Shown piece after piece: positions 3,014 through 32,487 of a stretch of 33,029 nucleotides of DNA. The notes under the pieces were generated by a model that was not told the origin of the DNA, ran no database searches, and saw only the letters and a program-made list of their open reading frames with translations. Numbering within the stretch: position 1 is the first letter of the stretch; the number at the start of each line of letters is the position of its first letter. Made by a program: the position numbers and the translations under genes. Source of the stretch: Bacteroidales bacterium (lineage in GTDB: Bacteria > Bacteroidota > Bacteroidia > Bacteroidales > UBA7960); assembly GCA_003560165.1 (NCBI GenBank), contig PWJC01000159.1:1-33029 (forward strand), in the 5' to 3' direction.

Positions 3014-6000
3014 TTAATGCAATTTCACCAGATCCCGCAATTCATCGTTAGAAAGCTCCCCGATCCAAGCCTCACCAGTATCTACGGTCATGTCGGCCAG
3101 CTCTTTTTTTTCTTTCAGCATTTCATCGATGCGTTCCTCGAAGGTGCCTTTGCACAGGGGGCGGTATACCATCACATTGCTTTTCTGCCCGATTCGAAAG
3201 GTGCGATCGGTAGCCTGTGCTTCCACAGCAGGGTTCCACCACAGGTCGTAATGGATGACATTATTGGCTGCTGTTAAGTTAAGGCCTGTCCCACCTGCCT
3301 TAAGCGACAGGATAAAAATCTTATGGTATGACTTATGCTGGAAATGATCCACCAATTCATCGCGTTTTTTTCGGCTAAGGCCTCCGTGAAGAAACAGCGG
3401 CAGCAGGCCTGTCTGCTTCTGTATGATCTGCGTAAGCAGGTCGCCCATTTCCTTATATTGAGTAAAGATGAGTGTTTTCTCGCCGTTAAGCAGTATGTTT
3501 TCAAGCAGTCTGAGCAGTAACTGTGCTTTACCTGATTGCCCGGGCAGTACATCACCTTTCTTCAGATAATGCACAGGATGGTTACAGACTTGCTTTAGGG
3601 CAGTCATCATCTTCAATACCAGCCCCCTCCGCTCGATACCTTCGCTCTTCTCGATTTTTTCCATCACCTCTTGCACCAGGCCCTCGTATATGGCAGCCTG
3701 TTCAGTGGTGAGTGGACAATAAAGGGTGTTCTCTATTTTGTCAGGCAGATCGCTGATAATGGATCTGTCTGTTTTCAGTCTGCGTAAAAGAAACGGACGT
3801 GTAACTTTACGAAATATTTCCGCTTTGTGGCGATCATGCTCCTTTTGGATAGGATTGGCAAATGTTTCCTGAAAGTTTTTCAATCCACCCAGGTACCCTT
3901 TGTTGATAAAATCGAAAACGCTCCAGTAGTCGCTGAGTCTGTTTTCTACCGGCGTACCGCTCATGGCAATTTTTACATCTGCTTTAATCTTTTTAATGGC
4001 CTTGGTTTGTTCTGCCGATGGATTTTTTATGGCCTGCGATTCATCTATAACCACCACATACCAGCGGGGCCTGGAAAGTACCGTATAATCATTGCGTGCC
4101 AGTCCGTAGGAAGTGAGCAGCACATCGTATTCTTCCGCAGGCAAAGCCCGTTGGGCACCATGATACACCGCAGGGACGAGGCCGGGAGCAAATTTTTCCA
4201 ATTCCTTTTGCCAATTGGAAAGGAGGCTGGTGGGAGCCACTACCAATGCTTTCCGCTTGTCATTGATAAGCCCCGAATCCTTAAAGTGTTGGAGTGCAGC
4301 AATAACCTGAATTGTTTTTCCCATCCCCATATCATCAGCAATCAGAGAGCCCAGTCCCAGCTTGCTATTGGCAACAAGCCATTGATAACCTGATATTTGA
4401 TAAGGTCTTAAAGTGGCATGGATGCCAGCGGGTACACCCAGCTTGTCGGGTGTGAGCAATCCTTTGATTCTCCTTTTTAAGTCATCATTGATCAGCACAG
4501 GCGCGTTTTCATGTTGTTCCGCCAGGGTGGCCCTGAGCAGATCCAACGATGAAAGTTCATTCCTGCGCGAAAGCTGCTTGCGTAGTTTTTCCAGATCATC
4601 CGGGTTTACCAACAGATAGGCGTTTCTGTATTTAATTAGTCCCCGCTTTCTACCTACCAGATCATAAAAATCATGTTCAGCTATGATCGTATCACCCAGT
4701 GCCACACCCCAGTCATAATCGAGAATATCAGTTATGGAGGCAAAGCTTTGTAAACGGCTGCTTTTCTTCTCGTTTATGCGAAGGCCGGCCACGGGTCTAA
4801 TGAGGTGCTTCAGGGTCGGAGGCAACGCAATGCTGATGCCCAGCATTTTTATCAATGGAAGAACCTCCAGCAGGATATCCTCAAAAGCGTCAGCCGGATA
4901 CCACCTGCCCTGATCGTCATCCAGGGCGCTATCCAAATCCGGAAAGTAATCCGCCAGCAACGCAAGGTCTCTCAGCAGCGGAATCTGTTGATCTGTCAGA
5001 CCTGGTTCTTTCATAAAATCCGAAAGACTCAGCACTTGCGACATCCCGCTCAGCTCCACATCAACAGATACCCTAAATCCACCGTTCGTATCGTCTTCAT
5101 CGACCCTGAGCAGCGGAATGGTATTGCCCTGAACCAAAAACAAGCGACGAAGCCAGATATGAATAATAGAAGGTATGGAATTTTTTTTTGGTCCAAAAGC
5201 AATGATATGACCGGCAAAGAACATGGATATCAGCGGATGCCGGTTGCTGTATCCCGGTGTACTTAAGGCATCCATATTCACACACTGAATGAAAAACAAA
5301 CGTGCCAGGTTGCTGCAGAACATGTTAAGCTGCTCTTCAGCTTTTAAAGGGATGATGATGCCTTTTTTCGGATCATCAGTGTGGTAAACCAAGTTCAACT
5401 GGGTAAGCCTTCTTTCAAAATGTTCGCATTGCTTGCTGACTTCCACATCCATGCGGGCAGGTATCCATTGAATGGTATATGATCCGGGTTCAACAGACAA
5501 AAGGCGCGGTACCAGGGCAGCATGTGCCATAAGGGCCTGTACAAACCCAAACATATCCCAAAGTATTTGAAATGAGGGATCATACAAGGCAAGCCGGTTT
5601 TCTGCGGCCAACCGTTCCAGATGAGACAAGGCGTACATCAAGCCATGATCCTTATCCTGATTGCCATCGGCATCCAATACCCGTGCATCCAGTACAAGGT
5701 GTTCGTCAGCAATCAACTGCAAACTACTTCCCGGAAGCATTTGAATTTCTTTGTCATCAACAGGATGCTGAAATTTGCGGGCGAAACGGCTGAGTTTCTT
5801 TAGCGATTCTTTGATAATTTCTCTAAAATCACGATCATAGAAGATGGGATTGGGAACCAACACCTTACCTAAAAAACCCGTCATATCAGGCAATAGGGTA
5901 AAGTCTGGCAGTTCCAGCTGCTCCGCATCTTGTGTTTTTTGTATTGAATCTGCCGCAGATAAGAGTGAAGTCAGTTTGAGAATATTCTCTTGTTTGAGCT

Positions 6001-6523
6001 CTTTAGCTTTGATGCCTTTTTTCTCCATGGCCTTTATCATATCAAGTCCATGCAACTCAAAAACCAGGAAGGGGTTCTCATCAATACTCGCAGCAATGAT
6101 GTATACCACAGAGGCAATATGTTTGCAAGGAACTGCCCAGTCAGGACAGGAGCAACTCATCTGAATGTCGCGCCAGCTTTTGGGGAAAATCTGAATACCT
6201 TGCGATTCCGCAATCTTCAATAAACCGGCAGGTAATTCGCGGTTGAGCAATCGGGACAACAGGATGCGATTGTTGAGAACCGAACTCAGTAACTGGTTTT
6301 GTTCATCCAGGCTGAACAAGGGAACAACCATCTTTACTTTATAGGGAGAAGGTCTGGTTCCGGCTACACGGGCATGAATTACATTCTTTTTATACTCAAT
6401 GCCCTTCACCGCACCTTTGGAAGCATAATTGCGTCCGCGGGGCAAACGGTTGCTGTAATCAATCTTTTCGAGGGCATTGAGCCATTGCAGCCCCCACCAG
6501 GTTCTGCCATATTTTTGGGCCAT
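3014..6523 (-). CDS. SWIM zinc-finger SNF2-family DEAD/DEAH helicase
   Basis: 1169 aa. SWIM motif CSCPDWAVPCKH; Walker A DDMGMGKTIQ; DESQAIKN; MSGTPVENRLSDYWS; C-terminal helicase motifs FILSLKAGGTGLNLTAANNVIHYDLWWNPAVEAQATDRTFRIGQ. Confidence 0.95.
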   Translation of the reverse strand: MAQKYGRTWWGLQWLNALEKIDYSNRLPRGRNYASKGAVKGIEYKKNVIHARVAGTRPSPYKVKMVVPLFSLDEQNQLLSSVLNNRILLSRLLNRELPAGLLKIAESQGIQIFPKSWRDIQMSCSCPDWAVPCKHIASVVYIIAASIDENPFLVFELHGLDMIKAMEKKGIKAKELKQENILKLTSLLSAADSIQKTQDAEQLELPDFTLLPDMTGFLGKVLVPNPIFYDRDFREIIKESLKKLSRFARKFQHPVDDKEIQMLPGSSLQLIADEHLVLDARVLDADGNQDKDHGLMYALSHLERLAAENRLALYDPSFQILWDMFGFVQALMAHAALVPRLLSVEPGSYTIQWIPARMDVEVSKQCEHFERRLTQLNLVYHTDDPKKGIIIPLKAEEQLNMFCSNLARLFFIQCVNMDALSTPGYSNRHPLISMFFAGHIIAFGPKKNSIPSIIHIWLRRLFLVQGNTIPLLRVDEDDTNGGFRVSVDVELSGMSQVLSLSDFMKEPGLTDQQIPLLRDLALLADYFPDLDSALDDDQGRWYPADAFEDILLEVLPLIKMLGISIALPPTLKHLIRPVAGLRINEKKSSRLQSFASITDILDYDWGVALGDTIIAEHDFYDLVGRKRGLIKYRNAYLLVNPDDLEKLRKQLSRRNELSSLDLLRATLAEQHENAPVLINDDLKRRIKGLLTPDKLGVPAGIHATLRPYQISGYQWLVANSKLGLGSLIADDMGMGKTIQVIAALQHFKDSGLINDKRKALVVAPTSLLSNWQKELEKFAPGLVPAVYHGAQRALPAEEYDVLLTSYGLARNDYTVLSRPRWYVVVIDESQAIKNPSAEQTKAIKKIKADVKIAMSGTPVENRLSDYWSVFDFINKGYLGGLKNFQETFANPIQKEHDRHKAEIFRKVTRPFLLRRLKTDRSIISDLPDKIENTLYCPLTTEQAAIYEGLVQEVMEKIEKSEGIERRGLVLKMMTALKQVCNHPVHYLKKGDVLPGQSGKAQLLLRLLENILLNGEKTLIFTQYKEMGDLLTQIIQKQTGLLPLFLHGGLSRKKRDELVDHFQHKSYHKIFILSLKAGGTGLNLTAANNVIHYDLWWNPAVEAQATDRTFRIGQKSNVMVYRPLCKGTFEERIDEMLKEKKELADMTVDTGEAWIGELSNDELRDLVKLH

Positions 6524-6987: not shown

Positions 6988-7300
6988 AGTATATTATCAC
7001 GACAAAATAGCCGGTATTCTGTCAGAAACAGAAGAAGGTTACGTTTTTCGATATGACACTGACTACCTGCAGGCAAGAGAAGTTGAGCCTGTGAGTCTTA
7101 CATTACCTCTAAGCGAAGAACCATATCTCAGCAAAGTAATGTTTCCTTTTTTTGACGGCTTGATCCCTGAGGGTTGGTTGCTTGATATTGCGGAGAAAAA
7201 CTGGAAAATTGATGCACGTGACCGCATGGGACTCTTACTTGCCTGTTGCCACGATTGCATAGGAGCTGTAAGCATCAAAAACGACAGCAAGATCATATAA
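6974..7300 (+). CDS. HipA N-terminal-domain protein (HipS-like)
   Basis: 108 aa: KVYYHDKIAGILSETEEGYVFRYDTDYLQ...VSLTLPLSEEPYLSKVMFPFFDGLIPEGWLLDIAEKNWKIDARDRMGLLLACCHDCIGAVSI. This is the HipA N1 domain as a stand-alone ORF, overlapping hipB by 14 nt. Confidence 0.85.
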   Translation: MRIAKVYYHDKIAGILSETEEGYVFRYDTDYLQAREVEPVSLTLPLSEEPYLSKVMFPFFDGLIPEGWLLDIAEKNWKIDARDRMGLLLACCHDCIGAVSIKNDSKII

Positions 7301-7302
7301 GG

Positions 7303-8253
7303 ATGGAAAATAGACGGTGTTTATATTGTTATCAATTGCTGAGCATGGAAGACCAGGATATTCATGCTGCCTGCAGCAAAAAAATCTTTGGTTCCTCTGT
7401 GCCACCTCTGTTGCCCTATTCGGAGGCGGAGATGTATGAACTGGGCTTGCAAGTGATTAGAAGTCAGGCTGTGGTTACCGGAGTTCAACCTAAGCTCTCG
7501 CTTCACCTTGAGCCGCCAAAAAAGAGGTACATGACACAAAAATTTACCATTGTAGGTCTTTGGGGAAGCTACATCCTGAAACCACCTACGAATCAATATC
7601 CCAGCTTGCCTGAGCTGGAAGACCTAACCATGCATCTGGCAGAATCCTGCGGCATTACAACAGTACCTCACTCGCTGATAAGGCTGCAATCAGGTTCACT
7701 TGCCTATATCACTAAACGGGTCGACAGAAAAAAATCACAGAAAGTTCACATGGAAGACATGTGTCAGCTAACTGGTCGTATGACCGAATATAAATATAAA
7801 GGATCTTATGAGCAAATCGGGAAAGCCATCTTAAAGCATTCTGCAAACCCACTTTTGGATGCAGTTAATTTTTTTGAACAGGTAATTTTTTCATTTCTTA
7901 CCGGCAATAATGATATGCATCTGAAAAATTTCTCGCTGATTAAGCAGCCAGATGTTGGGTGGGTTCTTTGTCCGGCATACGACATGGTACCCTCTGCACT
8001 GGTTGTGAAAGGAGATACGGAAGAAGTGGCGTTGAACCTCAATGGGAAAAAGCGGAAAATCAACAGCAATGATTTCCGGTCGGCCATGAAGAAGTGTCAT
8101 ATACCCGCAAAGGCAACAGATAATATATTCAGCAAGTTTGAAGGAGTTGATAAAAAGTGGGAAGAACTGGTGGAGGTCAGCTTCCTTCCCGAATATCTAA
8201 AAAAAACTTATTTAAAACTGGTTGGCGATCGAATGAAACGGCTTTATGAATAG
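7303..8253 (+). CDS. HipA-like Ser/Thr kinase core (HipT-like)
   Basis: ORF 7246..8253 with likely start at 7303 (MENRRCLYCYQLLS), 2 nt after the HipS-like stop. TGVQPKLSL loop, catalytic NNDMHLKNFSL, metal-binding AYDMVPSAL, N-terminal CLYC...HAAC pair. Confidence 0.88.
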   Translation: MENRRCLYCYQLLSMEDQDIHAACSKKIFGSSVPPLLPYSEAEMYELGLQVIRSQAVVTGVQPKLSLHLEPPKKRYMTQKFTIVGLWGSYILKPPTNQYPSLPELEDLTMHLAESCGITTVPHSLIRLQSGSLAYITKRVDRKKSQKVHMEDMCQLTGRMTEYKYKGSYEQIGKAILKHSANPLLDAVNFFEQVIFSFLTGNNDMHLKNFSLIKQPDVGWVLCPAYDMVPSALVVKGDTEEVALNLNGKKRKINSNDFRSAMKKCHIPAKATDNIFSKFEGVDKKWEELVEVSFLPEYLKKTYLKLVGDRMKRLYE

Positions 8254-11196: not shown

Positions 11197-12651
11197 TTAT
11201 TCTTCTTCCGGAATGGGATGAAATTGCAGGGCGCCGATATCCGGTCGCTGCAGCCGGCTCCTGCCTGCAAGGTCGTAAGGGACCCCGGCGGCAACCGAGG
11301 GGTTTCCCGCCCCTATGGCGGGAGAACCTTCCTTAAGCCTGAAATCATGTTCTCCGGGCTCGTTGAACAGGGGGTCGAGATTGACCAGGGGGTTGACGAA
11401 GGCTTCGGAGGTGGTAGAAAGCCGGGTACGCAGCAGGCAATGGTCAAAGGTGTATTCCATCTCGCTTCCCGGGGCCAGGTCAAAAGCGATCTCTTCCTGA
11501 TTGCTTCCATAAATAATGCTGTTTCCGAAAAACAGATGGTCGAAATCCCTTTGCTGGATATTTCCGTCGATGTCTTCGTAATAATTGTTGATGATCACCG
11601 AGGGGGTATTGCGGATGCCGGTACGGTAATAATTGGCAATGGTCAGATGCCGGAAATCGTAATGCCCGCCCAGGGCGAGTACCAGGGCGTGGTCACCACA
11701 GTTGGCAATGGCCATGTTCTCGCCCACCACATGGCTGCCCTGGGCCAGCAAGCCTGCCAGGCTCATGTTTTTGATGACAGTATTGCTGATTTGCAGGGTC
11801 GGATGGACCTGGCTGCCGAGGGTGTCGACATGGAGGCCCACCGTGCCATTCTTTATCAATGCGTGATCGATTGTGTGGTTTTTGCTGTTGGCAGTAAGCC
11901 ATATACGCCCCCATTGCCCGGGCTGGTCGCGGTAAAAGGATTCCAACCGGTCGCCCTGGATGCTCACCGGGTTTTCGCTGCTGCCGGCAATTTCCAGGGT
12001 GGAGCGCTGAAGGAATACCAGACTGGAGTTGTTGTGCATGTGAACACGGGTGCCTTCTTCCATCCTCAGGGTCACATCGGGGGCTACCACCGCCAGCCCG
12101 TAAACCACATACGGGAGATGCGATGTCCAGCTGGTGTTTTGGTCGATCACGTGATAGGATACGCCCGACTGGGGATCGGTGTAATTCGGGTGGATAAAAT
12201 GAGCATCCTGTCCCCAGGCTACCAGCTTAACATCCTGAATGTTGTTGTTGGTGTTGAACACCACGCTGTCGACAATGGTCAGCGGAAGATCCTGGTTAAC
12301 CGGGTCGACGGTGACTTCTACGAATACGAAGAGGCTGTCGTTTGCCTCGATGGCCACATCATGAAGCATGGTTCCGGAGCGCCCGTCGACATTGATGCGA
12401 AAAAACGATTGACTTCCTCCGGCCAGGGACACCGTAGAGAGATTGATGCGGCGGTTGTGGGTGTTGTACACCCTGAACGATCGTGTGGACGAACCCAGGC
12501 TGGTGAACACGGTGTCGAAAAGCAGGGAATCGTGCGAAAAGGAAAGGCTGAGCGAGGGGTCGGTATCAAAACCATCGTCCCTGCAAGAAAAAAAAGACAT
12601 TGCAACAAGGACGGCGGCAAAAAAAAGGATCAGTGAACGAAAATAATACAT
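11197..12651 (-). CDS. Right-handed parallel beta-helix lipoprotein
   Basis: Start MYYFRSLILFFAAVLVAMSFFSC with lipobox (ORF extends to 12681). Repetitive beta-helix body and C-terminal GSPAIGAGNPSVAAGVPYDLAGRSRLQRPDIGALQF. Confidence 0.85.
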   Translation of the reverse strand: MYYFRSLILFFAAVLVAMSFFSCRDDGFDTDPSLSLSFSHDSLLFDTVFTSLGSSTRSFRVYNTHNRRINLSTVSLAGGSQSFFRINVDGRSGTMLHDVAIEANDSLFVFVEVTVDPVNQDLPLTIVDSVVFNTNNNIQDVKLVAWGQDAHFIHPNYTDPQSGVSYHVIDQNTSWTSHLPYVVYGLAVVAPDVTLRMEEGTRVHMHNNSSLVFLQRSTLEIAGSSENPVSIQGDRLESFYRDQPGQWGRIWLTANSKNHTIDHALIKNGTVGLHVDTLGSQVHPTLQISNTVIKNMSLAGLLAQGSHVVGENMAIANCGDHALVLALGGHYDFRHLTIANYYRTGIRNTPSVIINNYYEDIDGNIQQRDFDHLFFGNSIIYGSNQEEIAFDLAPGSEMEYTFDHCLLRTRLSTTSEAFVNPLVNLDPLFNEPGEHDFRLKEGSPAIGAGNPSVAAGVPYDLAGRSRLQRPDIGALQFHPIPEEE

Positions 12652-18846: not shown

Positions 18847-20277
18847 CTAGGTTGAAGGGGAATCCCTGCAAGGGAGGTTCCCCTTTACAGGGAGTGCCGA
18901 ACCAAGCAGGCGGTCAAAAAAAGGCGGCAGGAAATGATCCCTGCCATAAAATCTCATGAAAGGCTGTAAGCTTGTATTGACGTGCTTCGGGTAAAGGGGG
19001 CCCTGCCGGTAGTGATTCAGCAAGGGGGGCAATGCATTCCCTTGTTTCAGCCGGCATGCAACGACATGGGCCAGAGCCACATTAACTTCTTCCACCGTAC
19101 CCACGCATTCGAAGGGCTTGTTCGGGGAGACTCCGGTAAGGTCGTCGAGGGTGGCCAACAGGGAGGCATCGGCAAACAGATCATGCCCGAAAATCGCTTT
19201 CAAGGCGTTGGAAGGCATAAAAGGAGAGAGGATGATGAAGGTGAACAGGCATTTGGGGCAAATGCCGCACCACCGGTCGGTTTTGCTGCCTGCATTGCAG
19301 CTTTTGAACGCCTGGTGGTATTGGGTATGGCGACTGAACATGGCGGCGATCTGCAGTTCGTTTAGTGGCCTGAGCAGACTAAAGTAATTGAGGTCACCTC
19401 CGACGTAAAGGTCAGTGTAGGTACGAAAATCCCGTTCGAACTCCAGGGATTTGCTGTACTGATGATTGATCATGGTGCCTGGTACCGAGGGTTCGTTGGC
19501 GCTTGATTCGTTCGACAGGGCAATATGACGGATACCGGCCAGTCGGGCGGTCAGTAGCGAGGCAAAGGCCAGCATGGCCGAAAAAGGGGTATGCCCGTTC
19601 AGGTACCCGTGTTCGTTCAATTCGAGAAGGAAGGGGTCTATTTCCCTGTCGAGGGTTAGCATACTGCCTTCTGCAAAGCCAGCGGCAGCCACTACCTCCC
19701 TGATGGCGCCCCGTGGGTTAATTGCAAAGGGAGAAAGCTGCATGCCACTGCCTTTGAGCAGTTCGATGCTTACCGCCGAATCCTTTCCACCGCCCACGGG
19801 AACCAGCACCCGGCCGGCATCGGAGGGGGTTTCGGTCCTGGCAGGGATGGAGGGGGTGCCGGGGGGTGAGTCGAACCGGACAAAATCCTTTTCGGGAATG
19901 GGAATTCCGTTGGTATAAAGGAACTCTCCCAGGCCGGCCAAATAGAGTTTCTGCCACCATGCCTGCTGTGAGGCTGTCAGTTCAAAGGGAAGGATCATCG
20001 CCCGGGGCGAACAGAAGGCCTTCCAATAACTGAGCATCTCGATCATGCCCAGGTGGAATACAATCGAAGAGATCTTTGCCGGGTCAGTCGCGGCCAGGCG
20101 GCCGGGGCCAGGGTGAAACTTAAGCCTGGGTTTGAAATCCATTCCGGGCCCTGCACTGAAGGTGAATTCCACTTCCAGTACTTCGCCCGACGCACGGTAG
20201 CTGAAATCCTGGTATACGAATTCAGGATGCTGTTTCCTTAATAACAGGTATTTTTGATAGTTATCGCTCCGCTTCAT
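18847..20277 (-). CDS. MurL-like UDP-MurNAc-L-Ala-L-Glu epimerase candidate
   Basis: 476 aa with ATP-pyrophosphatase-like VLVPVGGGKDSAVSIELLKG, SNESSANEPSV, and C-terminal KTDRWCGICPKCLFTFIILSPF. Directly upstream of murD in the same operon. Confidence 0.75.
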   Translation of the reverse strand: MKRSDNYQKYLLLRKQHPEFVYQDFSYRASGEVLEVEFTFSAGPGMDFKPRLKFHPGPGRLAATDPAKISSIVFHLGMIEMLSYWKAFCSPRAMILPFELTASQQAWWQKLYLAGLGEFLYTNGIPIPEKDFVRFDSPPGTPSIPARTETPSDAGRVLVPVGGGKDSAVSIELLKGSGMQLSPFAINPRGAIREVVAAAGFAEGSMLTLDREIDPFLLELNEHGYLNGHTPFSAMLAFASLLTARLAGIRHIALSNESSANEPSVPGTMINHQYSKSLEFERDFRTYTDLYVGGDLNYFSLLRPLNELQIAAMFSRHTQYHQAFKSCNAGSKTDRWCGICPKCLFTFIILSPFMPSNALKAIFGHDLFADASLLATLDDLTGVSPNKPFECVGTVEEVNVALAHVVACRLKQGNALPPLLNHYRQGPLYPKHVNTSLQPFMRFYGRDHFLPPFFDRLLGSALPVKGNLPCRDSPST

Positions 20278-22751: not shown

Positions 22752-24092
22752 CTAAACATACCCCTGGGCGATCATGGCATCGGCCACCTTGACAAAACCG
22801 CCGATATTGGCCCCTTTTACATAATTCACAAAATCCCCTTCCTTTCCGAATTCCTGGCAGGTCTTGTGGATGTTGATCATGATGTTGTGCAGCCGCTGAT
22901 CGACCTCTTCCCTTGTCCACGAAAGGCGGAGCGAGTTCTGGCTCATCTCCAGGCCTGAGGTGGCCACTCCGCCGGCATTGGCGGCCTTCCCGGGTCCATA
23001 GAGGATCTTGTTTGCCAGGAAAACCTCCACGGCTTCGGGTGTAGAGGGCATGTTGGCGCCTTCCGATACACAGATACAGCCGTTCTTGACCAATGCCCTG
23101 GCTTCCTCCTCGTTGAGTTCGTTCTCAGTGGCGCAGGGAAGCGCAATGTCGCATTTCTCCATCCAAGGGCGGGAGACCCCTTCTACGTACTTGCAACCGA
23201 ACTCATCGGCATATTCGCGTATACGGCCCCGTTTGATGTTTTTCAGGTTCTGCACATAATTAAGTTTTTCGGTGTCGATGCCATCCTTGTCGTAGATATA
23301 GCCGCCCGAGTCGGAAAGGGTCACTACCTTGCCGCCCAGTTCGATGATCTTTTGGGTAGCAAATTGCGCCACATTGCCCGATCCGCTGATGGCCACCGTT
23401 TTGCCCCTGATCTCCTCATTGATGGTGGCCAGCATTTCCTGGGCAAAATATACCGTACCGTAACCGGTGGCTTCCGGACGGATCAAACTGCCGCCATACT
23501 CCAGGCCCTTGCCAGTGAACACCCCCGTAAATTCGTTGCGGATCCGTTTGTACTGACCGAACATGAAGCCGACCTCACGACCCCCGACACCGATATCCCC
23601 TGCAGGCACGTCGGTATCCGGACCAATGTGCCGCGAAAGTTCGGTCATCAGGCTCTGGCAGAATCGCATGACCTCCACATCCGATTTGCCCTTTGGGTCA
23701 AAATCAGACCCTCCCTTGCCCCCACCCAACGGCAGCGAGGTCAGGCTGTTTTTGAATACCTGTTCAAATGCCAGGAACTTCAGTACGCCCAGATCAACGG
23801 TGGGGTGAAAACGCATTCCCCCTTTATAGGGGCCGATGGCTGAGTTCATCTCAATACGGTATCCACGGTTTACCTGCACTTCGCCTTTGTCGTCAATCCA
23901 GGGAATGCGGAAAATGATGACCCTTTCGGGCTCGACCATCCGCTCAAAGACTTTCGCCGCCTTGTATTTAGGATTTTCGTCCAAAAAGGGGACGATGGTT
24001 TCGGCCACTTCCTGAACGGCCTGGTGAAATGCCCTTTCGCTGGGATTTTTCGCTACCACGTAATCCATAAACTTTTTTACCTGTGCATCCAT
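22752..24092 (-). CDS. gdhA: Glutamate dehydrogenase, predicted NADP-type
   Basis: 446 aa. GPYKGGMRFHP, LPLGGGKGGSDFDPKGKS, PAGDIGVGGREVGFMFG; nucleotide fingerprint KTVAISGSGNVAQFATQKIIELGGKVVTLSDSGGYIYD. Confidence 0.96.
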   Translation of the reverse strand: MDAQVKKFMDYVVAKNPSERAFHQAVQEVAETIVPFLDENPKYKAAKVFERMVEPERVIIFRIPWIDDKGEVQVNRGYRIEMNSAIGPYKGGMRFHPTVDLGVLKFLAFEQVFKNSLTSLPLGGGKGGSDFDPKGKSDVEVMRFCQSLMTELSRHIGPDTDVPAGDIGVGGREVGFMFGQYKRIRNEFTGVFTGKGLEYGGSLIRPEATGYGTVYFAQEMLATINEEIRGKTVAISGSGNVAQFATQKIIELGGKVVTLSDSGGYIYDKDGIDTEKLNYVQNLKNIKRGRIREYADEFGCKYVEGVSRPWMEKCDIALPCATENELNEEEARALVKNGCICVSEGANMPSTPEAVEVFLANKILYGPGKAANAGGVATSGLEMSQNSLRLSWTREEVDQRLHNIMINIHKTCQEFGKEGDFVNYVKGANIGGFVKVADAMIAQGYV

Positions 24093-24410: not shown

Positions 24411-27400
24411 ATGAAGCAAGATGCCGGCAACGCCCGTAAGGCGCTCAAGATCACGGATAAAACAGATGACCTGTCCGATCAGAAGGCTGTGATCAGCCAG
24501 GAAGATATCCGGAGGTTGCTGGCCGAAAAACAGGAGCGGCTCAAGGAGCTGGGAGCCATACACCAGACCACCTCCATCTTGAAGGAGGAAAAGCCCGTGG
24601 ATGAGATGCTGCAAAGCATAGTGAACATCCTGCCCCCGGCATGGCAGCATCCCGAAGACGCGGCAGCCAGGATTCGCTATGGGGAAAAGGAGTTTAAAAG
24701 CAGGAAAAACCTGGAAGAAACTCCCTGGGTGCAGCGCAAGACCTTTGAAACCATCGACGGCACCGAGGGCAGCATCGAGGTGTTTTACCAGAAGGACTTT
24801 CCCGAAGAGGAAGAAGGACCCTTTTTCATCGAAGAGCGGCATCTGATCAACAACCTGAGCAGCCTGATCACCGGCCACCTCAATACCCGGATCGGCAAAG
24901 AACTGCTCAAGAAGGCCGCACCCGAAAAGGATCAGAAAGACGGGGAAGATGCTCCTGCAAGTCACGCCGCCATGAGCCGGCAACTTTTGCAGAAATTCCT
25001 GAACAAGCACAATTCGGACCGCGACATTTACCACGACCTGATGCAATACAAGGTCAGGGAGATCCTGCTGGTGGCCAACCTCTACGATGCCTATATCATT
25101 GAGCAGGAAGGCAGGTTCTTTGAGCAGGTCACGGGCGAATACTACCAGTTGAACCTTAGCTCGGCCCCCCGCATCACCGGGGTATCCACCCCCGAGGAAG
25201 CCCTCGAAAAAATGCAGGAGAAGCATTTCGACATGGTGATCGTGATGATGGGTGTGGAAAAATCAACACCCATACAGCTGAGCCGCATCATCAAACAGAT
25301 CTACCACAATATTCCCATCTACATGCTGCTGAATAACAACAGCGACATTGCCCTTTTCGAAGACGGGAAAAAACCCATTACCTCCATCGACAAGGTGTTT
25401 GTGTGGAACGGTGATTCCAAGGTATTTCTGGCCATGGTCAAGTACAACGAAGACCGGATGAACGTGGAAAACGACATCCTTATCGGGATGGTCCAGGTGA
25501 TATTGCTGGTGGAAGACTCGGCCAAGTATTATTCGCGCTACCTGCCCATTCTGTATTCGATTGTGATCGAACAGACCCAGCACCTGATTGAGGAGGTGAA
25601 CACCGACGAGCTTTACAAACTACTAAAAATGAGGGTAAGACCCAAGGTCTTGCTGGCCTCGAGCTACAACGAGGCCGTTTTGCTGTACAACAAATACAGG
25701 GAAAATCTGTTGTGCCTGATCTCTGATGTCAAATTTGAAAAAGACGGAAAGATGGATTCCCGGGCCGGCCTCAAACTCGTGGAGTACGCCAGGAAACACA
25801 CCCCCAACCTGCCCACGGTCCTTCAATCGTCCGACCCCGAAAACGCGACCGAAGCCTACAAACTGCAATCGACTTTTGTCAACAAGAACTCCGAAACACT
25901 CAAGCAGGACCTGCAGAGTTTCATCAATTACTACCTGGGGTTCGGTCATTTCATATACAAGGACGAAGAAGGTCGCCGTGACATCGCCGTGGCCAGGTCC
26001 ATGAAGGAGTTCCAGACCCATTTGAAAACCATCCCTGAAAAGTCGCTGATCTATCACGCAAAAAAGGACCATTTCAGCCATTGGCTCATGGCAAGAGGCG
26101 AAATACAAATCGCCAAACGGATCAAGCCGCTGCAGGTGGAGGATTTCTCCTCGCCGGGAAGCCTTCGCGAATACCTGATCGGCGTGGTGGAGCAGTGCAT
26201 TCACGACAAGCAGAAGGGCAAGGTGATCAACTACGAGGAATCGGCCCTGATGGACAAGACCAATGTGGTTAGCCTTTCGCCGGGCTCCCTGGGAGGGAAA
26301 GGCCGTGGTCTGGCCTTCATCAACATGATCATCAACAGCTTTAACTTCAGTGAGCTGGCCCCCGACATCGTGATATGCACTCCGCGGACTTCCATTATCG
26401 GCACCGAAGAATTTGAGCGTTTCATCCACAACAACAACCTTTACAATAAAGTATACGGAGAAACCGATTACGAAAAGATCAAAAAACTCTTTGTGGAGGG
26501 CAGCCTCACCCCCACCCTGCGCAAACGCCTCAAAGCTTACCTTTCCATCATCGAAAAGCCCCTGGCCGTCCGTTCGTCGAGCTTGTTCGAAGACTCCCTG
26601 ATGCAACCCTTTGCCGGCATTTTCGACACCTTCCTGTTGCCCAATAACCACCCCGAGCTCAATGTGCGGCTCGAACAGGTAATGAATGCCATCAAGCTGG
26701 TGTTTGCCTCCATTTTCTCTCCCACGGCCATGGCCTACTTCAAGGCAGTGAACTATAAGATCGAAGAGGAAAAAATGGCGGTGATCATCCAGGAGGTGGT
26801 CGGTCATCCATACAACGGCAGCTTTTATCCCCACATCAGCGGGGTTGCCCAGTCGTACAACTTCTACCCTTACTCTTACATGAAGCCCGATGAAGGCTTT
26901 GCCTCCATTGCCCTCGGCCTAGGCAAATACGTAGTAGAGGGAGAAAAGACCTACCGCTTCTCTCCGGCACATCCGCAACTGGAAATGTATACCCCGAAGG
27001 AGTTGTTCAAAAACTCGCAGGTACACTTCTACGCCGTTGACCTGACCAGGCAAAAACCCGACCTGCTCCAGGGCGAGGATGCCGGGCTGATCAAGCTGGA
27101 GATTTCCCAGTCGGAACAACACGGCACCCTCAAACACTGCGCTTCGGTTTACGATTTCAACAGCGAAAGGACCTTGCCCGGCATAAGCGATCCGGGCCCC
27201 AGGGTATTGAACTTTGCCAACATCCTCAAATATGACTACATTCCCCTGGCCAGGACCATTGAGGTGCTGCTCGACATCATTTCTGAATCGATGGGCACCC
27301 CCATTGAGATGGAATTTGCCGTCGACCTGGAAAAAAACAGGGAAGGTCAGGCATCCTTCTATCTTTTACAGATCAAGCCCCTGATCAAGAACATCATCGA

Positions 27401-27989
27401 AACCGATATCAATATTGACAAAATCGACAACGACCGCCTGCTGCTCTACAGCGAAAACGGCATGGGCAACGGCCGCATCTCTGAGCTGTACGACGTGGTT
27501 TATGTCGATCCGGAACGTTTCGACAAACTGAAAACCGAAAAGATCCGCGACGAGATAGAAGAGATCAATGCGGAAATGTCCGGACAGGACAAAAAATACA
27601 TCCTGATCGGACCGGGCCGCTGGGGAACCCGCGACCGCTTTATCGGCATTCCGGTAAACTGGTCGCAGATATCCAATGCCCGCATCATTGTGGAGATGAG
27701 CATGGAGGATTTTGCCCTGGATGCCTCGCTCGGCTCCCATTTCTTTCACAATGTGATCTCGATGAACGTGGGCTATTTCTCGGTAAAGCACAACGACCTG
27801 ATCGATTACATCAACTGGGATGTGCTCAATGAAGCCCCCCTTGTCAGGCAGACAAGATACCTGCGGCATGTCCGTTTCGAACAGCCCTTGGAGGTGATCA
27901 TGGACGGCAAAAAACGCGCCTCGCTGATCTATTTTGACAACGGCCACGACAAACAGGCCGAAAACCCCGGACCCATTCCCACAGCATGA
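24411..27989 (+). CDS. GAF-like + degenerate receiver + receiver + PPDK/PEP-synthase N-terminal ATP-grasp protein
   Basis: 1192 aa. GAF-like N-terminus (ERLKELGAIHQTTSILKEEKPVDEMLQSI); receiver VILLVEDSAKYY...CLISDVKF...VLQSSDP...FVNKN; ATP-grasp SLGGKGRGLAFIN, LAVRSSSLFEDSLMQPFAGIFDTF, EEEKMAVIIQEVVG; C-terminal ILIGPGRWGTRDRFIGIPVNW...GSHFFHN. Confidence 0.88.
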   Translation: MKQDAGNARKALKITDKTDDLSDQKAVISQEDIRRLLAEKQERLKELGAIHQTTSILKEEKPVDEMLQSIVNILPPAWQHPEDAAARIRYGEKEFKSRKNLEETPWVQRKTFETIDGTEGSIEVFYQKDFPEEEEGPFFIEERHLINNLSSLITGHLNTRIGKELLKKAAPEKDQKDGEDAPASHAAMSRQLLQKFLNKHNSDRDIYHDLMQYKVREILLVANLYDAYIIEQEGRFFEQVTGEYYQLNLSSAPRITGVSTPEEALEKMQEKHFDMVIVMMGVEKSTPIQLSRIIKQIYHNIPIYMLLNNNSDIALFEDGKKPITSIDKVFVWNGDSKVFLAMVKYNEDRMNVENDILIGMVQVILLVEDSAKYYSRYLPILYSIVIEQTQHLIEEVNTDELYKLLKMRVRPKVLLASSYNEAVLLYNKYRENLLCLISDVKFEKDGKMDSRAGLKLVEYARKHTPNLPTVLQSSDPENATEAYKLQSTFVNKNSETLKQDLQSFINYYLGFGHFIYKDEEGRRDIAVARSMKEFQTHLKTIPEKSLIYHAKKDHFSHWLMARGEIQIAKRIKPLQVEDFSSPGSLREYLIGVVEQCIHDKQKGKVINYEESALMDKTNVVSLSPGSLGGKGRGLAFINMIINSFNFSELAPDIVICTPRTSIIGTEEFERFIHNNNLYNKVYGETDYEKIKKLFVEGSLTPTLRKRLKAYLSIIEKPLAVRSSSLFEDSLMQPFAGIFDTFLLPNNHPELNVRLEQVMNAIKLVFASIFSPTAMAYFKAVNYKIEEEKMAVIIQEVVGHPYNGSFYPHISGVAQSYNFYPYSYMKPDEGFASIALGLGKYVVEGEKTYRFSPAHPQLEMYTPKELFKNSQVHFYAVDLTRQKPDLLQGEDAGLIKLEISQSEQHGTLKHCASVYDFNSERTLPGISDPGPRVLNFANILKYDYIPLARTIEVLLDIISESMGTPIEMEFAVDLEKNREGQASFYLLQIKPLIKNIIETDINIDKIDNDRLLLYSENGMGNGRISELYDVVYVDPERFDKLKTEKIRDEIEEINAEMSGQDKKYILIGPGRWGTRDRFIGIPVNWSQISNARIIVEMSMEDFALDASLGSHFFHNVISMNVGYFSVKHNDLIDYINWDVLNEAPLVRQTRYLRHVRFEQPLEVIMDGKKRASLIYFDNGHDKQAENPGPIPTA

Positions 27990-30967
27990 TAACAAAGTAT
28001 TCCAAATACAAATACGACGAGAGTTTCGCTACCGACACCTACGAGTTCAAGGAAATATCCTATGAACACCTGATGCAGAAGCGGATCATCAATGTGCTGC
28101 TCATTTGCAGCAACTACGATGCCTTTATGCTGGAAGAAGACGGCCGCATCAACGAGAAGATATTCCTCGAATACACTTCAAAGAACCTGAGGTACCCCCC
28201 TCAGTTCACCCAGGCTAGCTCGACCGAAGAAGCCTTCAGGCTGCTGGAGGAAAAGCAGTTTGACCTGGTAATCACCATGCTGAACGTGGGCAGGATCGAT
28301 TGCTTTGAGATGGCCCGCAGGGTAAAGAAACGATATCCGAGTATCCCCATTGTGGTACTGACCCATTTTTCGCGGGAAGTATCCATCAAACTCCGCGACG
28401 AAGACCTCAGCTCGATCGACTATGTATTCTCCTGGCTGGGCAACCCGGGACTTTTGCTAGCCATCATCAAACTGCTCGAAGACCGGATGAACGCGGAATT
28501 CGACATAGAACGTGTCGGGGTGCAGGCCATTTTGCTGGTCGAAGATTCGATCAGGTATTATTCGTCCTACCTGCCGACCATTTACCAGGTGATTTTTGAT
28601 CAGACCAACGAATTGATGACCGAGGGGCTCAACGAACACCGCAAGACCCTCAGGATGCGGGCCCGTCCGAAGATACTGCTGGCCAAAACCTACGAAGAGG
28701 CCCTGGGCTTTTACAAAAAGCACAAAGACAATCTGCTGGGCATTATTTCGGATATCAGTTATGCACGCGAAGGCAGCCGGGACGACCAGGCCGGGGTCAG
28801 GCTGGCCAGGCATATCCGCAGGAACAACAAGCAGATCCCCATCCTGCTGCAGTCGTCCGAAAAGTGGGATGCACGGATCAACAAAGACATCGCTGTCAGC
28901 TTCATCGACAAGTACTCCAAGACCCTGTTGCTCGAACTCAAACATTACATAAAGCAAAATTACGGATTTGGCGATTTCGTGTTCAAGGACCCGGAAACCG
29001 GCATGGAGGTGAGCCGGGCCAACAACCTGCATTCCCTGCAGGTGAAGATCAGCCGGATCGCTCCGAAAGTACTCGAATACCATGTATCGAACAATCATTT
29101 TTCGCGCTGGCTCAAGGCAAGGGCCCTGTTCTCGATCGCAAATGTTTTTGCCGACAAAAGCCGGGATGACTTTGGCAATGTTGAGGAAATACGCAGCTAC
29201 CTCATCGATACCATCGCCAACTACCGCCGCACCAAGGGCCGGGGCATCATTGCCAGCCACCTGGACGAATACGCGATCTTCACGAGGCTGGGCGACGGTC
29301 AGCTGGGAGGCAAGGCACGGGGGCTGGCCTTTATCGATTCGGTAATAAACAAATACAAGATCACCAACCACTGGGAAGGGGTTACGGTAGCCATCCCCCG
29401 CACAGTGGTGTTCACCACCGACATATTCGACGAGTTCATGGAGGAAAATGACCTCTACGATTTTGCCCTTGAAAGCAACAGCGACGAAGAAGTGCTCGAA
29501 CGCTTCGTTTACAGCAAAACCCCTTCCAGGATGAAATCCTTTGCCAGGGAGGTGATCGATTCCTTTAAGTCGCCCCTGGCCATTCGCTCATCCAGCCTGC
29601 TCGAAGACAGTCATTACCAGCCATTTGCCGGAGTGTATTCGACCTATATGATATCCAACAACCATCCCGAGCACAACGTAAGGGTTACCCAGCTGGAGCA
29701 AGCCATCAAGAGCGTTTACGCCTCTGTTTTCTTCCAGGAGAGCAAATCATACATCGAAGCCACCTCCAATGTGATCGACGAAGAAAAAATGGCAGTAGTC
29801 ATACAGGAAGTATCGGGACGCTCGTACGGAAGCATGTTTTACCCTACCATCAGCGGGGTGGCCCGTTCGGTCAACTTCTACCCGATAGAGCATGAAAAAT
29901 ACGAAGACGGCGTGGCCAACATCGCCTTTGGCCTGGGAAAGACCATCGTAGACGGGGGAGTTTCCATGAGGTTCTGCCCCAAATACCCCCACAAGGCCTT
30001 ACAGCTGGCCAATACCGAAATTGCGCTTCGCGACAGCCAGCGGGAGTTCTACAGTCTCGACCTGGACCCGGATAAATTCAGGCCGGCCGTTGATGAGACC
30101 ATCAACATGCACAAGCTCAACATTCGCAAATTAGACGCCGAATCTTCGCTGAAATATGTGACCTCTACCTTCGACTACGAAGACCAGATCATCCGCGACG
30201 GTTTGTACGAAAAAGGATCCAGGATCATCACCTTTGCCAATGTGTTGAAGCATGGCAGTTTTCCCCTGGCCGACATTCTGCAGAAACTCCTGAAGATCGG
30301 GCAACGGGAAATGAATAACCAGGTGGAGATCGAATTCGCCGTCACCCTCGATGTAAGCCGCGGAGAGCTGCGTCATTTTCATTTTCTGCAGATCAGGCCG
30401 GTGGTTGAAACCCAGGAAAAGAACCGTATCAAGCTGAAGCTGTGCAAACCCAAAGAAAGCATTCTTATCAGCCAAAATGCCCTGGGTAACGGCATCATCG
30501 AGACCATTCACGATTTCATTTATGTAAAACCCGATACCTTCGATCCGTCGCACACCAATGAAATTGCCGGGGTAATTGGCAAGCTCAACGCCCGGCTTGC
30601 CAGGGAGAAAAGAAATTACATTCTGGTAGGGCCCGGGCGGTGGGGATCGAACGATCCCTGGCTTGGCATCCCTGTAAAGTGGGCTCAGATCAGTTCTGCA
30701 AGGTTGATCGCGGAAGTGGGGATGAAGCATTTTCACATCGACCCCAGCCAGGGAACCCATTTTTTCCAGAACCTCACTTCCTTCCACGTGGGTTACTTCA
30801 CCATCAACCCTTACCTGAAAGAGGGGTTCTACGATGTAGATTTCCTGGACAGGCAGCCGGCAGAATACGAAGACCGCTACCTGAGACATCTTCGTTTTTC
30901 CACGCCTCTGGTCATTAAGATCGATGGCAGCCAGAAAACCGGAATCGTTTTAAAACCAGAAAAATAA
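27986..30967 (+). CDS. Paralog: degenerate receiver + receiver + PPDK/PEP-synthase N-terminal ATP-grasp protein
   Basis: 993 aa. Receiver AILLVEDSIRYY...GIISDISY...LLQSSEK...FIDKYS; ATP-grasp QLGGKARGLAFID, LAIRSSSLLEDSHYQPFAGVYSTY, DEEKMAVVIQEVSG; C-terminal ILVGPGRWGSNDPWLGIPVKW...GTHFFQN. Starts in ATGA overlap with the upstream gene. Confidence 0.88.
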   Translation: MITKYSKYKYDESFATDTYEFKEISYEHLMQKRIINVLLICSNYDAFMLEEDGRINEKIFLEYTSKNLRYPPQFTQASSTEEAFRLLEEKQFDLVITMLNVGRIDCFEMARRVKKRYPSIPIVVLTHFSREVSIKLRDEDLSSIDYVFSWLGNPGLLLAIIKLLEDRMNAEFDIERVGVQAILLVEDSIRYYSSYLPTIYQVIFDQTNELMTEGLNEHRKTLRMRARPKILLAKTYEEALGFYKKHKDNLLGIISDISYAREGSRDDQAGVRLARHIRRNNKQIPILLQSSEKWDARINKDIAVSFIDKYSKTLLLELKHYIKQNYGFGDFVFKDPETGMEVSRANNLHSLQVKISRIAPKVLEYHVSNNHFSRWLKARALFSIANVFADKSRDDFGNVEEIRSYLIDTIANYRRTKGRGIIASHLDEYAIFTRLGDGQLGGKARGLAFIDSVINKYKITNHWEGVTVAIPRTVVFTTDIFDEFMEENDLYDFALESNSDEEVLERFVYSKTPSRMKSFAREVIDSFKSPLAIRSSSLLEDSHYQPFAGVYSTYMISNNHPEHNVRVTQLEQAIKSVYASVFFQESKSYIEATSNVIDEEKMAVVIQEVSGRSYGSMFYPTISGVARSVNFYPIEHEKYEDGVANIAFGLGKTIVDGGVSMRFCPKYPHKALQLANTEIALRDSQREFYSLDLDPDKFRPAVDETINMHKLNIRKLDAESSLKYVTSTFDYEDQIIRDGLYEKGSRIITFANVLKHGSFPLADILQKLLKIGQREMNNQVEIEFAVTLDVSRGELRHFHFLQIRPVVETQEKNRIKLKLCKPKESILISQNALGNGIIETIHDFIYVKPDTFDPSHTNEIAGVIGKLNARLAREKRNYILVGPGRWGSNDPWLGIPVKWAQISSARLIAEVGMKHFHIDPSQGTHFFQNLTSFHVGYFTINPYLKEGFYDVDFLDRQPAEYEDRYLRHLRFSTPLVIKIDGSQKTGIVLKPEK

Positions 30968-31073: not shown

Positions 31074-32411
31074 ATGAATTTAGAGAAAATAATGTCAGAC
31101 CTGGAACGCAAGAATCCGGGCGAAAAAGAGTTTTTGCAGGCAGCAAGAGAAGTGCTGGAAACCATCATCGATGTGGTGGAGGAAAACCCGAAATACCAGG
31201 CTGCCAATATTATTGAACGGATCACCGAACCCGACAGGGTGATCTCCTTTAAAGTTCAGTGGATGGACGACAAAGGCAAGGTACATGTAAACCGCGGCTA
31301 CCGTGTTCAGTTTAACAATGCGATCGGACCCTACAAAGGAGGCTGCCGCTTCCACCCAAGCGTCACACTGAGCGGGCTGAAGTTCCTGGGCTTTGAGCAG
31401 ATCTTCAAGAACAGCCTGACCACATTGCCCATGGGCGGGGCCAAAGGGGGTTCCGATTTTGACCCCAAAGGCAAGTCTCAGTCAGAGATCATGCGTTTTT
31501 GCCAGGCTTTCATGGCCGAGCTTTACAAATACATCGGTCCCGATACCGACATCCCGGCAGGTGACATTGGGGTAGGTGGCCGCGAGATCGGTTATATGTA
31601 CGGTATGTACAAGAAACTAACCGGCGAGCATACGGGTACATTTACCGGAAAGGGACGCAACTGGGGCGGCAGCCTGATCCGCCCGGAAGCCACCGGTTAT
31701 GGCGCTGTATTCTTTGCCGAAGAAATGCTGAAGACCGTTGGCGAAAAGATCATGGGCAAAACCGTGGCTGTTTCAGGGTTCGGCAACGTTAGCTGGGGCG
31801 CAATTACCAAAGCCACCCAGCTGGGTGCCAAGGTAGTGACCATCAGTGGTCCTGATGGGTACGTATACGACCCCGACGGCATTTCGGGCGACAAGATCGA
31901 TTACTTGCTTGAACTCCGCGCTTCCAACCAGGACATCGTAAAACCCTATACCTACGAATTCCCCAATGCCCAGTTCTTTGAAGGGAAGCGTCCCTGGGAG
32001 CAGAAAGTGGACATTGCCATGCCCTGTGCCATCCAGAACGAACTGGACGCAGAAGATGCCAAAAAACTGGTCGAAAACGGGGTGATGGCCATTTCGGAAG
32101 GGGCCAATATGCCCTGCACAGCAGAGGCCGTTGAGATTATCCAGGCAGCCAAGATCCTTTACGGGCCCGGAAAGGCAGCAAATGCAGGTGGTGTGGCCAC
32201 ATCCGGCCTGGAGCAGACCCAGAATGCCATGAAGCTGAACTGGCCCTCCGCAGAGGTGGAGGAAAAGTTGCACCTGATCATGAAGAACATTCACGAAGCC
32301 TGCAAAAAATACGGACAGGAAGAGGACGGCTACATCAATTATGTAAAAGGCGCCAATATCGCTGGTTTCATCAAGGTAGCCGATGCCATGATCGACCAGG
32401 GCGTAATCTGA
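31074..32411 (+). CDS. Glutamate dehydrogenase, predicted NAD-type
   Basis: 445 aa. GPYKGGCRFHP, LPMGGAKGGSDFDPKGKS; nucleotide fingerprint KTVAVSGFGNVSWGAITKATQLGAKVVTISGPDGYVYDPDGI. Confidence 0.95.
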   Translation: MNLEKIMSDLERKNPGEKEFLQAAREVLETIIDVVEENPKYQAANIIERITEPDRVISFKVQWMDDKGKVHVNRGYRVQFNNAIGPYKGGCRFHPSVTLSGLKFLGFEQIFKNSLTTLPMGGAKGGSDFDPKGKSQSEIMRFCQAFMAELYKYIGPDTDIPAGDIGVGGREIGYMYGMYKKLTGEHTGTFTGKGRNWGGSLIRPEATGYGAVFFAEEMLKTVGEKIMGKTVAVSGFGNVSWGAITKATQLGAKVVTISGPDGYVYDPDGISGDKIDYLLELRASNQDIVKPYTYEFPNAQFFEGKRPWEQKVDIAMPCAIQNELDAEDAKKLVENGVMAISEGANMPCTAEAVEIIQAAKILYGPGKAANAGGVATSGLEQTQNAMKLNWPSAEVEEKLHLIMKNIHEACKKYGQEEDGYINYVKGANIAGFIKVADAMIDQGVI

Positions 32412-32450: not shown

Positions 32451-32487
32451 CAGGGCCGGATGCAGACAGCATCCGGCCCTGCTTTTT
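32451..32487 (+). terminator. Rho-independent terminator after the NAD-type glutamate dehydrogenase
   Basis: CAGGGCCGGATGC-AGACA-GCATCCGGCCCTG, 13-bp perfect stem followed by CTTTTTC. Confidence 0.92.

Follow-up and report, generated by a model that had tools for sequence, protein, structure and literature searches.

The locus analysed here raises the question of what is accomplished by two large, adjacent proteins, A and B, that join receiver domains to an ATP-grasp domain of the PEP synthase type. Their genes lie within a 33,029-nt stretch of DNA (the window) and are flanked there by two glutamate dehydrogenase (GDH) genes. We found no characterised homologue in the PDB, NCBIfam, Pfam or the literature, and no direct publication on the family, in keeping with the original prediction that no characterised function is known; one annotated relative, from Parabacteroides distasonis, is named "PEP/pyruvate-binding domain-containing protein". 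As judged from their sequences, A and B are undescribed and probably signal-gated and ATP-using.

Organization of the locus

The open reading frame list and domain searches place gene A (1192 aa) at 24411..27989 and gene B (993 aa) at 27986..30967, both on the + strand and with exactly the lengths first reported. The predicted ATGA overlap is present at 27986–27989, where the TGA stop of A lies over the ATG of B. An NADP-type GDH gene, gdh1 (22752..24092, − strand), is divergent from A, and a second GDH gene, gdh2 (31074..32411, + strand), begins 106 bp 3′ of B on the same strand. The terminator scan lists a strong intrinsic-terminator-like hairpin after gdh2 (32451..32481, + strand) and none between B and gdh2, so that A, B and gdh2 may form one transcript. 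A and B are 38% identical across B residues 25–988, that is, over nearly all of B, and have hundreds of relatives, which argues that their resemblance is not due to chance.

All domains are encoded on the + strand. A begins with a sensor-like region (residues ~38–165, 24522..24905; GAF-like, fold unconfirmed), followed by a pseudo-receiver (25038..25481), a receiver (25491..25931), a linker (25932..26246), a PPDK_N ATP-grasp domain (26247..27398) and a C-terminal domain (27399..27950, GPGRWG...LGSHFFHN). B has the same order from the pseudo-receiver onwards: pseudo-receiver (28067..28519), receiver (28520..28969), linker (28970..29260), ATP-grasp (29261..30421) and C-terminal domain (30422..30964).

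PADLOC has no match for A or B, and a defence-system reading was rejected on that ground; Rfam has no match anywhere in the window. Elsewhere in the window, a 1169-aa SNF2 helicase that carries DUF3670 and a weakly matching SWIM zinc finger is encoded at 3014–6523 (−), its helicase part scoring against ZorD/DpdE models, and a 335-aa frame with a HipA_C kinase domain lies at 7246–8253 (+). Frames of 472 aa (11218–12636, +; overlapping a long − strand frame) and 476 aa (18847–20277, −) have no convincing Pfam match.

Receivers and linker

Conservation was assessed over 127 full-length homologues, 83 B-type and 44 A-type. Pfam Response_reg matches the first, degenerate receiver (E 1.1e-9 in B; 9.8e-6 in A, below the curated cut-off), which in all 127 sequences has Met at the phospho-Asp site (Met98 in B) and Trp at the Lys site (Trp150) and is therefore a pseudo-receiver. 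The second is too diverged for Pfam; it keeps the acidic pair, phospho-Asp, Ser and Lys (E186, D187, D256, S290 and K309 in B, equivalent to E368, D369, D439, S473 and K492 in A), no position having more than one exception among the B-type sequences or any among the A-type. The residues by which a two-component receiver is recognized (acidic pair, phospho-Asp, Ser/Thr and Lys) are thus present across the 127 sequences, bearing out the combination of a degenerate and a canonical receiver that had been predicted, and the second receiver is intact in nearly all receiver-bearing members.

The predicted (D/N)HFS(H/R)WL(M/K)AR linker motif is found in both proteins, as DHFSHWLMAR in A (residues 553–562, 26067–26096) and NHFSRWLKAR in B (residues 370–379, 29093–29122). 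The linker stretch of A matches DUF5752 weakly (Pfam E 1.3e-4, below the cut-off). Proteins of ~1000 aa with weak DUF5752 matches in other classes were considered as unrelated outer-membrane proteins, a reading that was rejected: those examined are true homologues, and their DUF5752 match is the linker.

Some relatives consist of the ATP-grasp and C-terminal domains only. The receivers are therefore dispensable, and the core function is not a two-component output as such. Histidine kinase genes occur within the locus in some distant relatives only; in three of these loci (L271–L273) genes for a PAS-HisKA_3 histidine kinase and a LuxR-type response regulator lie between two gdh-B units, and this kinase is a candidate partner for the receivers.

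The ATP-grasp domain

Pfam PPDK_N matches both proteins (E 8.6e-40 and 2.5e-37), as expected from the predicted PPDK/PEP-synthase N-terminal ATP-grasp. All 127 homologues keep the lysine of GGK, the arginine of RSSS, the ED pair, the glutamine of IQE, E781/E783 and the glutamine of LQIRP; the catalytic set in B comprises K443, R534, E540, D541, Q607, E781, E783, Q802 and R804. Of these, K443, R534, E540, E783 and Q802 are also shared by receiver-bearing, receiver-less and fused forms. With catalytic residues that are invariant or nearly so, the second receiver and the ATP-grasp domain both look competent, and A and B look active rather than relics; a dead ATP-grasp in both would have spoken against the original prediction, and the conserved residues show that this is not the case.

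Three results indicate that A and B are not PEP synthases: (i) the phosphohistidine swivel domain (PF00391, GGxTSHAA) has no Pfam match in either protein, and profile and fold comparisons were negative; (ii) the C-terminal PEP/pyruvate TIM barrel, reported as missing in the original prediction, has no Pfam match in A or B, and a C-terminal domain of ~180 aa stands in its place; and (iii) the NCBIfam PEP synthase/PPDK equivalog scores 54 bits, where the cut-off is 883. In an AlphaFold2 model of B, built from 69 aligned sequences (mean pLDDT 83.8, pTM 0.69), the ATP-grasp domain is nearest to rifampin phosphotransferase and HpeI (5HV1, 9GOJ) by Foldseek against the PDB. The source genome also encodes an ordinary PPDK (contig C84), besides a 1371-aa open frame with PPDK_N followed by a classic GGTTSHAA swivel (G000:C2:1516-2805; L121, L125).

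A C-terminal domain without known relative

The most strikingly conserved part of A and B is the C-terminal domain (GPGRWGSxD...DPSQGTHFFQN), whose presence in both proteins had been predicted correctly. Among the 127 homologues, Arg885, Asp890, His925 and Asn929 (B numbering) are kept with one exception, at His925, and R885, W886, D890, H925 and F926 are found in forms with receivers, without them and fused alike. Modelled alone, the domain of B reaches a pLDDT of 88.6 and a pTM of 0.88, and the predicted order of strands and helices resembles that of a phosphohistidine swivel, with His925 opening a helix. Despite this order, a swivel assignment was rejected: hhalign found no similarity to swivel domains from the source and related genomes, a PDB sequence-profile search gave no support, Pfam has no credible match, and Foldseek against the PDB found no fold match (best E 0.087 among 50 listed). 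Based on these comparisons, we treat the domain as without known relative.

Distribution and pairing of A and B

A profile of the C-terminal domain has matches in 130 of the 149 Bacteroidales genomes and in 57 of 346 genomes from a phylum-wide sample. The family is present in the gut and oral genera Parabacteroides, Phocaeicola and Prevotella, and no relatives were found in viral contigs. In a tree of the ATP-grasp and C-terminal domains, A-type proteins, with their N-terminal extension, form a clade apart from B-type (support 0.986), so that A and B are old paralogues and not the product of a recent tandem duplication. Many genomes carry the two unlinked or have just one of them, and a 4-bp overlap of the ATGA type occurs in 9 of 47 adjacent A-B pairs and is lineage-limited. 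Translational coupling had been taken to imply a hetero-complex; the frequent occurrence of each protein alone weakens this idea, and an obligate complex is rejected.

Association with glutamate dehydrogenase

The flanking GDH genes were overlooked in the original prediction, in which the domain order, intact receiver and competent-looking ATP-grasp stand and a two-component output as the core function does not. In a survey of neighbourhoods for conserved pairing, as had been suggested earlier, 57 of the 110 genes encoding the ATP-grasp and C-terminal domains had a GDH gene no more than two genes away, a count that, like the copy-number counts below, is inflated by shared ancestry, an effect that drawing loci mostly from one genome per family limits and does not remove. 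The chance expectation, estimated from one or two gdh genes per ~3000 genes, is well under one in 110, and adjacency to ELFV dehydrogenases is thus beyond chance. The next neighbour families were calcineurin-like phosphoesterase (12), LuxR-type regulator (11), KorB (7) and KorA (5); these KorAB 2-oxoacid:ferredoxin oxidoreductases are probably of the 2-oxoglutarate type. Roughly one in two family members lacks a gdh neighbour; in Parabacteroides and Phocaeicola, B and gdh are divergently oriented, rather than B lying downstream.

The association holds for each protein separately: unlinked A adjoins gdh1 in 7 of 19 loci, and B alone adjoins gdh2 (once gdh1) in 10 of 41. In distant classes several GDH paralogues each have their own partner, in the orders gdh-B-HK-RR-gdh-B-gdh (L271–L273) and gdh-B-gdh-B (L280), and a receiver-less ATP-grasp form of 579–589 aa follows a divergent gdh (L267, L269, L270), with a protein of ~1063 aa next in line. 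Family and gdh copy numbers are correlated (rho 0.60, n = 149 Bacteroidales genomes), and two gdh genes are found in 78 of the 130 genomes with the family and in 0 of the 19 without it, of which 15 still have a GDH. Near A or gdh in five loci (L011, L017, L199, L200, L207) are genes for NuoE/NuoF-like and large FAD/molybdopterin-type subunits, an NAD-linked redox complex.

The A N-terminus and a possible nucleotidyltransferase/phosphoesterase arm

The N-terminal region of A had been read as GAF-like, an assignment we reject, as Pfam GAF matches none of 16 members and a PDB search was likewise without a match. The region shares homology with the N-terminal part of nucleotidyltransferases that belong to this system in other loci; residues 9–146 of one such protein (L083) match 24528–24950 (28%). 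Two loci (L197, L314) have the order A, nucleotidyltransferase with A-like N-terminus, metallophosphoesterase, B, followed in L314 by gdh2. The nucleotidyltransferase is fused to the ATP-grasp protein in L266 and relatives, and the ~1063-aa protein comprises an A-type N-terminal region, ATP-grasp, C-terminal domain and a terminal Pol-beta nucleotidyltransferase.

The nucleotidyltransferase retains a GSx9SDID motif. Only 19 of the 149 Bacteroidales genomes carry it, and it is therefore accessory; all 19 have at least one ATP-grasp family copy, 17 have two or more, and in the two with a single copy this is A-type by score and length. The source genome encodes a 165-aa nucleotidyltransferase overlapping a calcineurin-like phosphoesterase gene (G000:C168:19937-21290; L309:5938-7291), on a different contig from A and B. 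In four further loci (L209, L215, L216, L218) the A-type proteins are 1386–1550 aa long, with ~200–400 extra N-terminal residues without clear Pfam match, and in all four a LuxR-type response regulator of ~217 aa is encoded close by.

Proposed function and alternatives

We put it at slightly better than an even chance that the paralogues A and B regulate GDH in a signal-gated, ATP-dependent manner, forming a post-translational control system; the phylum-wide association of the family points to GDH as the target. The occurrence of receiver-less members beside GDH suggests that the ATP-grasp/C-terminal module would be the core, with the receivers serving as input in one part of the family. A histidine kinase would phosphorylate the second receiver, or signals would reach the N-terminal region of A, and this input would open or close the module, which would in turn modify or bind the neighbouring GDH hexamer, most likely by reversible covalent modification. 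Such a switch would set the balance of ammonia assimilation and glutamate catabolism at the 2-oxoglutarate node. In some relatives the nucleotidyltransferase and calcineurin-like phosphoesterase may add another arm, analogous to the adenylylation of glutamine synthetase. The wider version, in which ATP-grasp proteins gated by receivers and bearing a new, catalytic C-terminal domain control GDH throughout the phylum by covalent modification, with the nucleotidyltransferase/phosphoesterase arm in some species, is tentative and lies on the doubtful side of even.

Adjacency to gdh also fits a shared metabolic role. A and B might be small-molecule phosphotransferases acting on a metabolite of the glutamate/2-oxoglutarate node, with the GDH neighbours supplying or using the substrate and the receivers gating the reaction, as could be expected from their nearest ATP-grasp structures, from the 2-oxoglutarate that KorAB and GDH have in common, and from the existence of split or re-arranged small-molecule dikinases and the re-use of ATP-grasp outside PEP synthase (PMC12167813). 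Known small-molecule dikinases, however, require a swivel phosphohistidine and substrate domains, neither of which is detectable here, and the presence of one partner per GDH paralogue, divergent GDH types included, better fits a GDH-directed role; we regard the small-molecule alternative as unlikely.

An orthodox two-component output, in which a histidine kinase acts through the second receiver to gate the ATP-grasp, the target is unrelated to GDH and the adjacency is historical, appears more unlikely still, because gdh adjacency holds in receiver-less members and separately for unlinked A and B, even though the second receiver is so widely intact, kinase and LuxR-type regulator genes lie inside the locus in L271–L273, and the source genome has 31 HATPase_c matches. 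Finally, a self-contained relay, in which the fully intact ATP-grasp would phosphorylate the near-invariant His925, at a helix start in a diverged swivelling C-terminal domain with swivel-like strand order, for transfer to Asp256 of the same protein's receiver, would amount to a histidine-kinase-like enzyme built from half of a PEP synthase and is very improbable, given the failed profile comparison, the lack of a swivel among the 50 listed PDB fold matches, and the retention of His925 in members without a receiver.

Control of GDH by A and B would bear on an old observation. GDH is a main ammonia-assimilation route in Bacteroidota, and in the 1980s the enzyme of B. fragilis was reportedly found to be reversibly inactivated in vivo. 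To our knowledge, no molecular agent has been identified behind the dependence of Bacteroides GDH on trans-acting genes and nitrogen source reported in the 1980s–90s. Baggio and Morrison (1996), in a title given in PMC4539542, link B. thetaiotaomicron GDH activity to a trans-acting gene downstream of gdhA, and a statement in the same source has the NAD(P)H-dependent GDH of B. fragilis inhibited at high organic nitrogen. On genomic grounds, A/B family members stand out as strong candidates for the GDH regulators so far missing from accounts of ammonia uptake in gut-type bacteria. If this is correct, receivers would gain a new output and the PEP-synthase ATP-grasp a new use, in a family whose C-terminal domain has no known relative; covalent control would make the system for GDH what the adenylylation cascade is for glutamine synthetase.

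Comparison with known systems

With PEP synthase and PPDK, A and B have in common the ATP-grasp superfamily domain and its GGK, RSSS..ED, IQE, E.E and LQ(I/V)R-type motifs, whereas they carry receivers and a new C-terminal domain, and the swivel and TIM barrel are undetectable. The closest solved structures to their ATP-grasp belong to rifampin phosphotransferase and the HpeHI/CreHI/PpsAB two-component dikinases, which differ in having a catalytic-His swivel (HpeH in HpeHI) and a small-molecule site; we know of none among these enzymes with receivers or GDH neighbours. PleD-type response regulators, which appear among the Foldseek fold matches, likewise place tandem receivers, one of them degenerate, before an enzymatic output; in A and B, in contrast, the degenerate receiver comes first, the second has an insertion after strand 1, and the output is an ATP-grasp rather than a cyclase. 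The GlnE/GlnD control of glutamine synthetase, in which a nucleotidyltransferase and a reversal enzyme act on an ammonia-assimilating enzyme, offers an analogy only: the accessory protein of the A/B system has the Pol-beta nucleotidyltransferase fold, whereas here the target would be GDH and the core component is an ATP-grasp protein.
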